Positions 25,100 to 29,829 of a DNA stretch of 64,000 bases are shown here, in pieces; position 1 is the stretch's first letter; each line of letters opens with the position of its first letter. A program made the translations under genes and the position numbers. Location: NCBI RefSeq assembly GCF_000316685.1, contig NC_019680.1, forward strand, positions 2,419,501 through 2,483,500, in the 5' to 3' direction. The DNA is from Synechococcus sp. PCC 6312 (lineage in GTDB: Bacteria > Cyanobacteriota > Cyanobacteriia > Thermosynechococcales > Thermosynechococcaceae). A model generated the notes under the pieces. It made no database searches and was not told where the DNA came from. It saw only the letters and a list, made by a program, of their open reading frames with translations.

Positions 25100-28000
25100 A
25101 TGTTCAATGATTTAATAGCTGATTTTGCACAACTGATCGCCCTCCATACCGATGACTTAATCTGTGTGCATGAACCTGATGGCAGCTATCTTTATCTAAC
25201 CCCTTCCTGTCAGGATTTGTTAGGCTATGACCCCGCGGAGTTAGTGGGTAGTACCCCCTACTTTCTCTTTCATCCCGATGATGTTGAGGCAATTCGCTCC
25301 GGCCCCCATGCTTTGGCGTTGCAGGGCGTTACAAATGTTCATATTACCTACCGGATGCGGAAAAAATCTGGGGGATACATTTGGCTAGAAACCTTAACTC
25401 GGCCAATTCTGGATGAAGCCGGGAATGTTCTCCTGATTGTCACTACATCTCGAGATATTACCCAACGCCGCTTGGTAGAAAAACAACTCAGTACAAATGA
25501 ACAATTATTAGAAACGTTTTTTAGCCAATCATTAGATGCCTGTTTTATTAAGCTATTACCCAGGCCCCTGAATTGGCAGGATGAACCAAATCGTGAAGCA
25601 GCGATTGAATATGCCCTGTTTAACCTGAGAATTACAAAAGTTAATGATGCTACCTGTACCATGTATCGGGCTGGCCGGGAACGACTGTTGGGACTCTGCT
25701 TTGGAGATATGTTCCGAAAAGATTTAGATCAGGGGCGGCAATTATTAAAAGCTTTGTTTCATCTTGGACGATTTCAAACAGAACTGCATTTACAACGCTT
25801 AGATAACACTTGGATGTGGGTAGATTGTAACTTTGTTTGTCTTTATGATGAACGGGGCTGGATTCGAGGCTGTTTTGATGTCAAAAAAGATATTACGGAG
25901 CGCAAGGAAACCCGCATTAAATTAGAGGAAGCCTATGCGGCCGTGACTAATGTTTTAGAAAGCACGACGGATGGCTTCTTCAGCGTTGATCAAGATTGGT
26001 CAATTACTTATGTTAATCACAACTTTGAACAGACACTGAAGACAAAACGTCAAAACATACTCGGAAAGAATTTTTGGGAACTATTTCCCGATGCCCGAGG
26101 AACCTTATTCGAGTCGGAATACAGTAGGGCCTTCAGAGAGAACCTACCCGTCCAGTTTGAAGAATTTTACCCCGGAACCCAACATTGGTACGCCGTTAGA
26201 GCTTATCCCACAGAGCAAGGGCTTTCCATCTATTTTCAGAATGTCACCGAGCAGAAGTTAGCCGAACTGCAACTTGCGGAAACCAATAATCGCCTGACTA
26301 CGGTTTTAGAGAGTACGACCGATGGGTTTTTTAATCTTAACTCGGACTGGCTAATTACCTACTGCAACTCCAAATTTGAAGAGACGGTTGGCTTAGGGAA
26401 AGAGCAACTGATTGGTCATAACCTGTGGGAACTTTTTAGTGATGCGGTTGGAACCCCCTTTGAATTGAAATTTAAGCAAGCTTTGGTCGAACAGGTTCCG
26501 ATTGAGGTGGAAGAGTTTTATCCAGGGCTGGGGCGGTGGTTTTATGTCAAGGCCTATCCGGTTGATTCTGGGTTAGCCGTTTATTTTCAAGATGTTACCA
26601 ATCGCCGCATTGCCGAAGCAAAATTAGCCGAGGTCAATCAGGAATTAAGCTCTGTTTTAGAGAGTACAACGGATGCCTTTATTTCTGTTGATCAGCAGGG
26701 AATGCTCACCTATATCAATCGTAACTTTGAGCGCAGAACAGGCCTAACGCGGGCGCAATTGCTGGGTCATACCCCTTGGGAGGTATTTCCAGACCTGGAG
26801 CATACGGCTTTTTTCCAGGCCATTGAGCAAGCCCAGGGTAACCATCAGCCCCAAAAAGTGGAATATTTTTGCCCCTATACCCAAACCTGGTTTTTGGCCA
26901 ATATTTACCCAACTCCAGGGGGCTTCTCGATTTACTTACAGGATGTCACGGCCCAGAAAAAACGGGAAGCCGAACGTCAACGCCAAAGTGACCTAACTGA
27001 ATTACTGTTACGTTTGAGTATTCAGGTACGCGAGTCCTTAGAAGTGCCCAAAATTCTCCAAACAACCGTGGATGAGGTGCGCCAATTCCTGGATGTGAAT
27101 CGGGTCATTGTCTATCAGTTCCTCCCCGATTGGTCTGGGAAAATTGTCGCTGAGGCGGTCGATAATCCTGATTATGCCTTGCTCAACCAAATCATTTACG
27201 ATCCCTGTTTTGGGGCCTCCCAGGTCGGGCCTTATCGCTTGGGACGGATTTCCCAGGTCATGAACATCCACGACTCGGATATGAATCCCTGTTATGTGGA
27301 GTTTTTAGCCCAATTTCAAGTCCAGGCCAACCTTGTTGTACCGATTATTTATCAAGATCAGTTATTGGGTCTCTTGATTGCTCAGCACTGTCAACAGCCG
27401 CGGGCCTGGCAGGAGGATGAAGTCAACCTATTAAAGCAATTGGCTACCCAAGTGGGGATTGCTGTCAGTCGCGCCAAATTAGTAACGGCCTTAAAAGAAC
27501 AGGAAGCGCGCTATCGGGCCATTGTTGAGGATCAAACCGAACTCATTTATCGCTGTAGCTCGGATGGGATTTTAACCTTTGCTAATGCTGCGTTTTGTCG
27601 CTATCTCCACCTCATCGAACCTGGGGAAATCAAAGCTGATCAGTGTTATTTTGACCAGGCCGTGCGCCATCCTTTTAATGAAGTGGAAACAGCTCGATTT
27701 GCCCAACAACTGGCGGCTCTAACTCCAGCCCATCCCGTGAGTTCGATTGAATGTGCTGTGGATTTACCCAGTGGCGACCAGGCCTGGTATGAGTGGACAA
27801 TGCGCGCCCTCTATGACAGCGCGAATCAATTACGTGAATATCAGTGCCTTGGCCGTGAAATTACTCGCCGCAAAAAAGTTGAGTTTCAACTCATCCATGA
27901 TGCTCTCTATGATTCCCTCACTGGCCTGCCCAATCGAGTCTTGTTGTTAGAGCGTCTCAACCAGGCCTGGAACCGTTACCGCCGCCATCCCGATTGCCCC

Positions 28001-29224
28001 TTTGTGTTGCTGTTTATTGATGTGGATCGGTTTAAGCGGATTAACGATAGTTTGGGACACCAGGCCGGCGATCAAATCCTCATGACCTTAGCTGAACGTT
28101 TACAAGTCGTCCTCAGGGCCACAGACACCCTCGCCCGTCTCAGTGGGGATGAATTTGTCCTCTTGGCTGAAGACATTAATCCTGGGATAGACTTAGACCA
28201 TTTGATTGGGCGACTCCAGCAAACAGCGGAACAACCCATCACAATCTATGACAATCTGATCAAACTCACCTTGAGTATTGGCGTGGCCTGGAGTTCAGAA
28301 GCCTACAGTCAACCTGATGAGTTACTCCGGGATGCCGATATTGCCATGTACCAGGCCAAGCGGCGGGGGCGACATCAATGTTTGACCTTTACTCCAGAAA
28401 TGCACCTGGAAGCTCGCTTTACTCTGAGCTTAGAAAGTGAACTCCGCAGTGCTATTCTCACAGCCCAGACCCGTGATCCGCTCCTTTTGACGGAGAGTGA
28501 ACTTGCCAAAGAGCTAACTGCCACACCTCTGCAAATTTACTATCAACCCATTGTTGACCTGAGTAGTCGTCATGTCATTGGCCTGGAAGCCCTCTGTCGT
28601 TGGTTTCATCCGCGGCGGGGGGTCATTTCCCCAAGTGAATTTATTCCCTTAGCCGAAGAGACGGGCCTCATCTTACCCCTCGGACAATGGGTCTTAAAAA
28701 CCGCCGTAGCCCATTTCAGTCAGTGGTATCAAACCTTGGGGCCGGGAAATATCCCAAAACTGAGCGTCAATTTAGCCCCACAACAATTTCTCCAAAGCAA
28801 TCTTGTCAATGATGTGGCTGACATTCTCGAAACCTATGATCTGCCCCCCAAATATCTCCATTTAGAAATTACTGAAACCGCCATGATGACCAGCCTAGAC
28901 GTGGTTGTTCGGGTTGCTCGGCAACTGCAAGACTTAGGCGTGTTTTTGAATATTGATGATTTCGGGACAGGTTACTCCTCCCTTAGTCGGCTTCATCAGT
29001 TGCCCATTCAAGCCTTGAAAATTGATCGCTCCTTTGTGTTGCGCTTAGACCCAGATATTTATCCCCTCTGGGATTTTGAAGCCCCCATCCCCTCCCAGGC
29101 CAGTGGTGACATTATCCAAGCCATGCTGAGTTTAGGTCAGAGCTTAGAAATGGATGTCATTGCCGAGTTGCCCGCAAAAGGGGCATTGACGGTGTACCAG
29201 TTCAGGAGGACGGCCTGTTGTTGA
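25100..29224 (+). CDS. PAS(5-6)-cyanobacteriochrome GAF-GGDEF-EAL signalling protein, EAL end truncated
   Basis: A 1374-residue soluble sensor. Two different PAS domains (about 10-265) are followed by three near-identical PAS repeats starting VLESTTD at residues 285, 402 and 519 (period 117). Next come a GAF (about 645-800), another PAS (about 805-930), GGDEF (SGDEF at 1015-1019 with RATD as an RxxD inhibitory site) and EAL (EAL at 1163). The GAF has DPCF at 701-704 and Cys731-Tyr732, the two-cysteine layout of DXCF cyanobacteriochromes, so bilin binding and blue/green sensing are inferred. The EAL keeps LEITE, DDFGTGYSSL and LKIDRSFV. After MDVIAE (about 1356) the reading frame runs into the reverse strand of the next gene and stops. 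The family's final EGVE...Q part is lost, so phosphodiesterase activity is doubtful and cyclase activity may remain. Confidence 0.9.
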   Translation: MFNDLIADFAQLIALHTDDLICVHEPDGSYLYLTPSCQDLLGYDPAELVGSTPYFLFHPDDVEAIRSGPHALALQGVTNVHITYRMRKKSGGYIWLETLTRPILDEAGNVLLIVTTSRDITQRRLVEKQLSTNEQLLETFFSQSLDACFIKLLPRPLNWQDEPNREAAIEYALFNLRITKVNDATCTMYRAGRERLLGLCFGDMFRKDLDQGRQLLKALFHLGRFQTELHLQRLDNTWMWVDCNFVCLYDERGWIRGCFDVKKDITERKETRIKLEEAYAAVTNVLESTTDGFFSVDQDWSITYVNHNFEQTLKTKRQNILGKNFWELFPDARGTLFESEYSRAFRENLPVQFEEFYPGTQHWYAVRAYPTEQGLSIYFQNVTEQKLAELQLAETNNRLTTVLESTTDGFFNLNSDWLITYCNSKFEETVGLGKEQLIGHNLWELFSDAVGTPFELKFKQALVEQVPIEVEEFYPGLGRWFYVKAYPVDSGLAVYFQDVTNRRIAEAKLAEVNQELSSVLESTTDAFISVDQQGMLTYINRNFERRTGLTRAQLLGHTPWEVFPDLEHTAFFQAIEQAQGNHQPQKVEYFCPYTQTWFLANIYPTPGGFSIYLQDVTAQKKREAERQRQSDLTELLLRLSIQVRESLEVPKILQTTVDEVRQFLDVNRVIVYQFLPDWSGKIVAEAVDNPDYALLNQIIYDPCFGASQVGPYRLGRISQVMNIHDSDMNPCYVEFLAQFQVQANLVVPIIYQDQLLGLLIAQHCQQPRAWQEDEVNLLKQLATQVGIAVSRAKLVTALKEQEARYRAIVEDQTELIYRCSSDGILTFANAAFCRYLHLIEPGEIKADQCYFDQAVRHPFNEVETARFAQQLAALTPAHPVSSIECAVDLPSGDQAWYEWTMRALYDSANQLREYQCLGREITRRKKVEFQLIHDALYDSLTGLPNRVLLLERLNQAWNRYRRHPDCPFVLLFIDVDRFKRINDSLGHQAGDQILMTLAERLQVVLRATDTLARLSGDEFVLLAEDINPGIDLDHLIGRLQQTAEQPITIYDNLIKLTLSIGVAWSSEAYSQPDELLRDADIAMYQAKRRGRHQCLTFTPEMHLEARFTLSLESELRSAILTAQTRDPLLLTESELAKELTATPLQIYYQPIVDLSSRHVIGLEALCRWFHPRRGVISPSEFIPLAEETGLILPLGQWVLKTAVAHFSQWYQTLGPGNIPKLSVNLAPQQFLQSNLVNDVADILETYDLPPKYLHLEITETAMMTSLDVVVRVARQLQDLGVFLNIDDFGTGYSSLSRLHQLPIQALKIDRSFVLRLDPDIYPLWDFEAPIPSQASGDIIQAMLSLGQSLEMDVIAELPAKGALTVYQFRRTACC

Positions 29225-29829
29225 GTATTGGCCCGGGCCTGTTGTAAAACCTTTTCATTTTCAATAATGGTGGCTTGTTGGGCCCGAATGTCCGCATCTG
29301 TAGATTGGAGGGTGGCCTGGGCGGTGCGATAGGCCAAGATGAAGGATTGGGCTTGCTCCTTAGAAACAGCCCCCTGCTCAAAAAGAGCCGTGTAGCGCTC
29401 GGCCTGGAGACGATTAAATTCTAGGGTAGCCAAGTCAGATCGACGTTGAGCTTCTAAGGCGCGCAATTCAGAACGAGAGGTTTCAACGGTGGCCTGGGCT
29501 GCTTGGAGGGCCGCAAACTGACTGGCAACGGCGGCTGATTGTTCCGAGGGATCGATTTGAATCAGCGGTGCACCTTGGGGTACATTCATCCCCGAACGAA
29601 CCAAAATCTGGGCAATCCGTCCAGAGACTTGCGGGCTGAGGTTGATGGCTCGGCGAGATTGGAGTTGGGTGTTATAGGTTCCAGTATCAACTAACATCCC
29701 CGCTTGGACGGTAGCAACTTTGACTGTAGGAGGAGGGGGAGCCCCAGCTTGTTCACTCGCGCAACTTCCCAGGCCTGTTAGTAAAGTACCACCCACCACT
29801 AGCGAGGCGAACCAATGACGTTGTAACAT
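29137..29829 (-). pseudogene. Membrane-fusion lipoprotein (RND/HlyD type), 3'-truncated
   Basis: The first about 220 residues are an efflux periplasmic adaptor: signal peptide with lipobox LGSC, a lipoyl half-domain (INLSPQVSGRIAQILVRSGMNVPQGAPLIQIDPSEQ), a long coiled-coil hairpin (about 75-200) and the start of the second lipoyl half (YTVNAPFAG). A normal protein continues with IVG-type lipoyl and beta-barrel domains for another 150 or more residues. Here the frame crosses at 29170 into antisense of the EAL gene and ends NSAMTSISKL. No RND pump gene is adjacent. It is very probably non-functional. Confidence 0.88.

Follow-up and report, generated by a model that had tools for sequence, protein, structure and literature searches.

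A likely SesC ortholog in Synechococcus sp. PCC 6312 with a DXCF cyanobacteriochrome GAF domain and a truncated EAL domain

The described systems closest to the protein reported here are photoreceptors of Thermosynechococcus. SesC (Tlr0911) joins a DXCF GAF domain to a PAS-...-GAF-PAS-GGDEF-EAL domain order, carries phycoviolobilin and is described as having raised diguanylate cyclase and lowered phosphodiesterase activity in blue light, with the reverse in green (PMC8846402; also PMC5871770 and PMC9090330). SesA (Tlr0924) is a blue/green photoreceptor in which Cys-499 is the DXCF cysteine and conversion of phycocyanobilin to phycoviolobilin is partial and extends over days (PMC4067208), and SesB (Tlr1999) is described as a phosphodiesterase that teal light upregulates (PMC5871770). 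TePixJ, known from GAF structures (3vv4, 4glq and 4fof), is a chemoreceptor-type protein. Two further reference points are NpR3784/miRFP670nano (6mgh), from the red/green lineage that is marked by a Trp two residues before the DXCF Asp (PMC11284453), and a T. vulcanus frameshift allele of Tll1859 (WT_N), in which the C-terminal EAL region with the putative metal ligands Glu669 and Gln689 is lost, c-di-GMP is more than doubled and phototaxis is reversed (PMC9090330).

The window analyzed here is a stretch of 64,000 nucleotides from Synechococcus sp. PCC 6312 (NC_019680.1, positions 2,419,501 to 2,483,500), a strain for which our literature search found no paper making the connection to a cyanobacteriochrome. 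It contains a large photoreceptor gene, whose frame (25100-29224) has no internal stop, and a broken neighbor, with the following features.

25100-29224, + strand: SesC-type photoreceptor gene, 1374 aa, PAS-PAS-PAS-PAS-PAS-GAF-PAS-GGDEF-EAL(truncated), with six PAS_4 stretches (Pfam)
25148-25471, + strand: first PAS domain, residues 17-124 (Pfam PAS_4)
25937-26995, + strand: three tandem PAS_4-type domains, residues about 280-632, borders set from the sequence
27050-27466, + strand: bilin-type GAF domain, residues 651-789 (Pfam GAF, 1.4e-23; model pLDDT 90.7; fold matches)
27200-27211, + strand: DPCF motif, residues 701-704, with Cys703 as the second (C10-type) cysteine
27290-27295, + strand: canonical (first) cysteine Cys731 (27290-27292) and Tyr732 (27293-27295)
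27503-27874, + strand: PAS domain between GAF and GGDEF, residues about 802-925, borders approximate (Pfam, domain alignment)
27902-28375, + strand: GGDEF domain, residues 935-1092, with SGDEF at 28142-28156 and RATD (RxxD) at 28115-28126 (Pfam)
28499-29167, + strand: retained part of the EAL domain, residues 1134-1356, ending in VIAE (Pfam EAL)
29168-29224, + strand: out-of-family tail of 18 residues, LPAKGALTVYQFRRTACC, and stop, an antisense reading of the hlyD remnant
29137-29829, - strand: truncated hlyD/RND-adaptor-type gene of about 220 residues, converging on the photoreceptor gene

A preliminary description of this locus, made from the sequence, had proposed a DXCF cyanobacteriochrome GAF domain, and this assignment is well supported by sequence comparison, tree and predicted fold. 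The residues it rested on are exact in the translated frame: DPCF at 701-704, Cys731 28 residues past Cys703, and then Tyr732, with the FQVQANLVVPI and LLGLLIAQHC segments following C-terminal to the tyrosine. The comparison drawn there with the cysteine spacing of TePixJ also stands, because the TePixJ GAF domain (locus L053) aligns both cysteines in the same columns; it shares DPCF, the 28-residue spacing and a similar fold with the domain studied here, although it has Cys-His at the canonical site, belongs to a chemoreceptor-type protein and is 38% identical. A phmmer search against PDB chains placed cyanobacteriochromes first (6oap, 1.6e-40; 8k9o, 4.5e-33; miRFP670nano, 4e-31; TePixJ 3vv4, 1.4e-28), and these matches, like the Pfam GAF match at 1.4e-23, are far from what chance would give. 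The AlphaFold2 model of the domain, built with 33 aligned GAF domains as input, has a mean pLDDT of 90.7 and a pTM of 0.86 and lies nearest to cyanobacteriochrome- and phytochrome-type bilin-binding GAF domains. The top Foldseek rows were the dual-sensor kinase 6oap/6ob8/6oaq, TePixJ and miRFP670nano, and the VIA structure search gave 4glq with a Z of 22.6 and an rmsd of 2.2 over 149 residues; among the 50 matches listed by each of these two structure searches, all were phytochrome-type bilin-binding GAF domains. The domain thus combines kinship to bilin GAF domains, Asp-Xaa-Cys-Phe, the 28-residue cysteine spacing and a His or Tyr after the canonical cysteine.

A tree of 29 GAF domains from the window genome and two relatives (a 30-domain set with G005:1333266 left out) is consistent with this assignment, with some blurring at the edges. 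A branch with support 98/93 places the query together with the 12 other DXCF domains and three CikA-like ones, apart from nine of the 13 remaining GAF domains; the other four of the 13 fall on the query's side, where they and the CikA-like domains sit among the DXCF rows with weak support. The 13 DXCF rows do not form one clean clade (two changes; one branch side in 11% of bootstrap trees), and an arrangement in which the 12 others form a clade without the query is mildly rejected (AU test, p 0.044). That the domain keeps the motif and yet binds no bilin appears very improbable to us, given that cyanobacteriochromes are its nearest neighbors by sequence and predicted fold, that the 98/93 branch separates it from most of the non-DXCF, non-CikA-like GAF domains, and that the genome has one bilin reductase gene (Fe_bilin_red, PF05996, 8.7e-81). 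Covalent bilin binding would be in keeping with that assignment.

The tyrosine that follows the canonical cysteine had been presented as a departure from the usual histidine, and this part of the preliminary description did not survive comparison with a broader set of GAF domains. Loci were collected by similarity to the SesC alignment (the 80 best of 467) and from the genomes of relatives, and 172 GAF domain hits were reduced to 131 distinct domains of at least 135 aa and then to 96 with the Asp, the Cys and the canonical Cys, the Phe of DXCF not being required. In this sample, which is biased to relatives, histidine is the commoner residue (63/96), but tyrosine is also common (31/96), and the remaining two domains, both CikA-like (L055 and L057), have leucine. 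When the column after the cysteine was masked and a tree was built from the 96 domains, the His/Tyr/Leu state changed at least 19 times, with different states even in a close pair (L147 with Tyr and L133 with His).

Tyrosine also occurs in described members of the class. The relative genome G005 (2,593,857 bp), which we take to be T. elongatus BP-1, partly from the cysteine numbering of Tlr0924 and TePixJ, has a GAF domain at 569614 that is TePixJ: its DXCF cysteine is residue 494 counted from the GTG start, it reads ECHLNQ, and it agrees in the alignment with the letters of 3vv4. The G005 domain at 945313, with its DXCF cysteine at residue 499 from the GTG start, corresponds to Tlr0924 and reads DPCF...DCYREL, and the domain at 2084383, which reads DSCF...PCYRDL, fits Tlr1999 by its position and strand and by being the last of the four DXCF GAF domains in that genome. 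SesA therefore shares DPCF, the 28-residue spacing and Cys-Tyr with the window protein, while differing in GAF clade and in length (a 777-aa frame against 1374 aa); SesB shares Cys-Tyr in its position-fitting GAF domain, with DSCF there, and again differs in GAF clade, and the window genome has its own likely SesB ortholog elsewhere. NpR3784/miRFP670nano has Cys-Tyr at the canonical site in the phmmer alignment, but it lacks the DXCF cysteine (DRYF is aligned there) and is of the red/green lineage. With Tlr0924 and the Tlr1999-fitting domain both carrying it, Cys-Tyr is an ordinary feature of functioning DXCF sensors, and as judged from the aligned sequences Tyr732 is a common alternative to histidine that leaves the class of the domain unchanged. 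A literature search on Cys-Tyr versus Cys-His found nothing useful. Because the tyrosine is common and exchanges freely among DXCF photoreceptors, it is unfit as a flag for unusual ones, and a false lead is thereby removed.

We sought relatives of the whole protein in 39 genomes, that of the window included. The best were eight same-family proteins with frames of 1241-1271 aa and 49-55% identity over the C-terminal half, single genes in G002 and in seven genomes of one genus, that of G005. Pfam finds five PAS_4 stretches, a GAF, a GGDEF and a complete EAL domain in the G005 and G002 relatives. The G005 relative lies on the + strand at 929-933 kb, between a CikA-like GAF domain (913 kb) and Tlr0924 (945 kb), and this placement among the numbered GAF domains is as expected for sesC (tlr0911). 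In the published knock-out of sesC a segment of about 3400 bp is missing from within the open reading frame (PMC9090330), and this requires a frame as long as this one. The window GAF domain groups with the SesC GAF domains of two relatives with support of 86/87 in the 29-domain tree, and with nine SesC GAF domains at an SH-aLRT of 88 in the 96-domain tree. The G005 SesC GGDEF domain has SGDEF and an RxxD, like the SGDEF and RATD of the window protein, which also has the PAS-GAF-PAS-GGDEF-EAL architecture of SesC with one PAS_4 stretch extra. Beyond this additional PAS, it differs from SesC in having Cys-Tyr where SesC has Cys-His and in lacking the end of the EAL domain. The three tandem PAS_4-type domains of the window protein (25937-26995) are 39-50% identical to one another, and the array looks like a lineage-specific duplication, with six PAS_4 stretches by Pfam against the five of the two SesC orthologs.

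Gene order was also considered as support for orthology and was set aside: the neighborhoods of the SesC loci in the two relatives compared have nothing in common with that of the window gene beyond the photoreceptor and a single weak match at 27%. Membership in the Tlr1612 family of phosphodiesterases (NF053781) was likewise rejected, the score of 512.3 bits standing against a curated 1600 bits. Orthology to SesC (Tlr0911) is the reading of the window gene that we favor, with moderate support for the placement, and since the end of the EAL domain is missing the gene would be an ortholog by descent and not a complete bifunctional SesC. On this reading it places a SesC ortholog outside Thermosynechococcus.

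Judging by its other photoreceptor genes, the genome seems to have the Ses set: a likely SesB ortholog with an 810-aa frame (G000:C1 3665435, L046) and a likely SesA ortholog of 798 aa (G000:C1 473446, L052), alongside likely orthologs of PixJ (964 aa; G000:C1 1350508, L050) and CikA (756 aa; G000:C1 3540071, L056). The SesA- and SesB-type GAF domains have Cys-His in the window genome and Cys-Tyr in G005, and the SesC pair has them reversed. The CikA-like GAF domain of the window genome is without the PCL cysteine of its two relatives.

The color of the predicted photocycle can be approached from residues of the GAF domain. The residue two before the DXCF Asp is Ile699, with Ile in TePixJ too, instead of the Trp of the red/green lineage, and Leu736 aligns with Leu527 of TePixJ, a tuning position (PMC7504144). 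The two cysteines, Ile699 and Leu736 together fit a blue-absorbing dark state and a green or teal photoproduct; it is the orthology to SesC alone that makes green the likely one of these. By analogy with SesC, then, a blue/green photocycle is likely for the window protein.

The output end of the protein departs from that of its orthologs. Their sequences continue past (I/V)(I/V)AE with GVET...QGY.F..P to the last position of the EAL profile, and the Pfam matches of two of them span profile positions 3-236 and 10-236, whereas that of the window protein spans 3-209 of 236. In the alignment of EAL domains, where nine of the eleven rows have sequence, the window protein reads VIAE (Glu1356), then LPAKGALTVYQFRRTACC and a stop, and the GVET...QGY end is absent. 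It therefore differs from the SesC orthologs in not having a complete EAL domain with the C-terminal Gln of QGY, and the GGDEF-EAL output given in the preliminary description was wrong as written. A blue/green cyanobacteriochrome over an intact GGDEF-EAL output, remarkable for a Tyr in place of His, would agree with the DXCF motif, the 28-residue spacing and the tyrosine, all of which are as stated, and with the presence of GGDEF and most of the EAL domain; given that the EAL domain ends before QGY and that tyrosine occurs in 31 of the 96 sampled domains, those of Tlr0924 and the Tlr1999-fitting locus included, we consider it improbable. As a separate observation, the retained EAL part contains 13 extra residues after FVLRL, at about 29051-29092, around IYPLWDFEAPIPS, which are absent from five SesC orthologs and from five aligned other EAL domains of the window genome.

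The T. vulcanus Tll1859 allele is comparable in that the C-terminal EAL region is cut and the Gln ligand is lost, but it concerns another protein, and Glu669, which is lost there, matches the Glu1356 that is kept here. Glu669 and Gln689 are 20 residues apart, the spacing in our EAL alignment from the Glu of AEG to the Gln of QGY, and by this mapping of our own the window EAL domain would keep the first metal ligand (Glu1356) and be without the second (Gln). With the Gln ligand missing on this mapping, loss of phosphodiesterase activity is expected.

The photoreceptor gene ends where it meets, 3' to 3', an equally broken neighbor, the junction lying at 29168-29170. What remains of hlyD is the first approximately 220 residues of a protein whose relatives have frames of 403-416 residues, and its match to TIGR01730 (2e-18) is below that model's cut-off. 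We searched the window genome for the missing parts. With the EAL end of a relative as query, it returned only seven further EAL genes and, from the window itself, the stretch that matches the first 22 query residues; the 3' half of hlyD gave three weak matches (best E 0.004); and for the AcrB-type RND gene (Pfam ACR_tran), which follows hlyD in two relatives, there were three matches of 22-24% identity and no ortholog. An inversion was considered and rejected as the cause of the fusion, as it would leave both missing ends side by side elsewhere and the searches found neither; a deletion accounts for the result better, as would a rearrangement with subsequent loss. The data fit a deletion in which sesC lost its end, hlyD lost half of its length and the RND gene disappeared, supposing that the three had become adjacent in this lineage.

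The same two facts, a break point common to both genes and missing ends that did not turn up elsewhere in the assembly, could also reflect an assembly error, with a real gene that has a normal EAL end. The assembly is, however, near-finished (two contigs, 99.99% complete, 0.14% contamination), and hlyD is far from sesC in G002, G005 and G011, so that a simple collapse is not an obvious cause; we regard such an error as unlikely.

There is also some chance, though a small one, that the gene is decaying as a pseudogene, its truncation leaving the protein as a whole unstable or silent, as the cut 3' end, the foreign 18-residue tail, the equally broken hlyD and the 13 extra EAL residues might suggest. 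Against this, the frame has no internal stop, the GGDEF domain, the RxxD and both cysteines are kept, and the EAL domain is constrained like the GGDEF domain. The branch leading to the window protein has lengths of 0.69 for EAL, 0.71 for GGDEF, 0.72 for GAF, 0.76 for the PAS before GGDEF, 0.38 for the first PAS and 0.93 for the second. Relaxed selection on the EAL domain was thus looked for in this comparison and not seen: the retained part evolves no faster than GGDEF and gives no sign of a long-standing loss of constraint, which suggests either that the loss is recent or that this part still has a structural role.

We therefore prefer, with a probability of roughly three in four, the reading that this is the GAF domain of a SesC-ortholog DXCF cyanobacteriochrome whose EAL end has been lost, probably leaving a cyclase raised by blue light. 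By analogy with characterized relatives, Cys731 would be the A-ring attachment point of phycocyanobilin or phycoviolobilin. In the dark state a bond from Cys703 to C10 would produce the blue-absorbing form; on 15Z/15E photoisomerization Cys703 would let go, giving a green-absorbing form, and the signal would pass from the GAF through the PAS to the GGDEF and EAL domains. With the EAL end removed by the deletion or rearrangement, and the gene joined 3' to 3' to the broken hlyD, the protein has probably lost its phosphodiesterase activity and would retain a diguanylate cyclase raised by blue light. Chromophore binding, the colors, the loss of phosphodiesterase and the retention of cyclase are all inferred for this protein, and its output is most likely light-regulated synthesis of c-di-GMP, with degradation crippled.

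What is familiar here is a DXCF cyanobacteriochrome of the SesC kind, and what is unusual is the loss of its EAL end by fusion with a broken neighbor. More tentatively, and with less than even confidence, we suggest that a natural deletion has turned the two-way SesC switch into a one-way maker of c-di-GMP in blue light, which would skew or re-wire the blue/green control of aggregation and phototaxis and make the gene a wild counterpart of the T. vulcanus laboratory EAL-truncation allele. With its phosphodiesterase half apparently cut off, the window gene offers a natural test of how far the color logic of SesA, SesB and SesC needs the green-light degradation arm of SesC.
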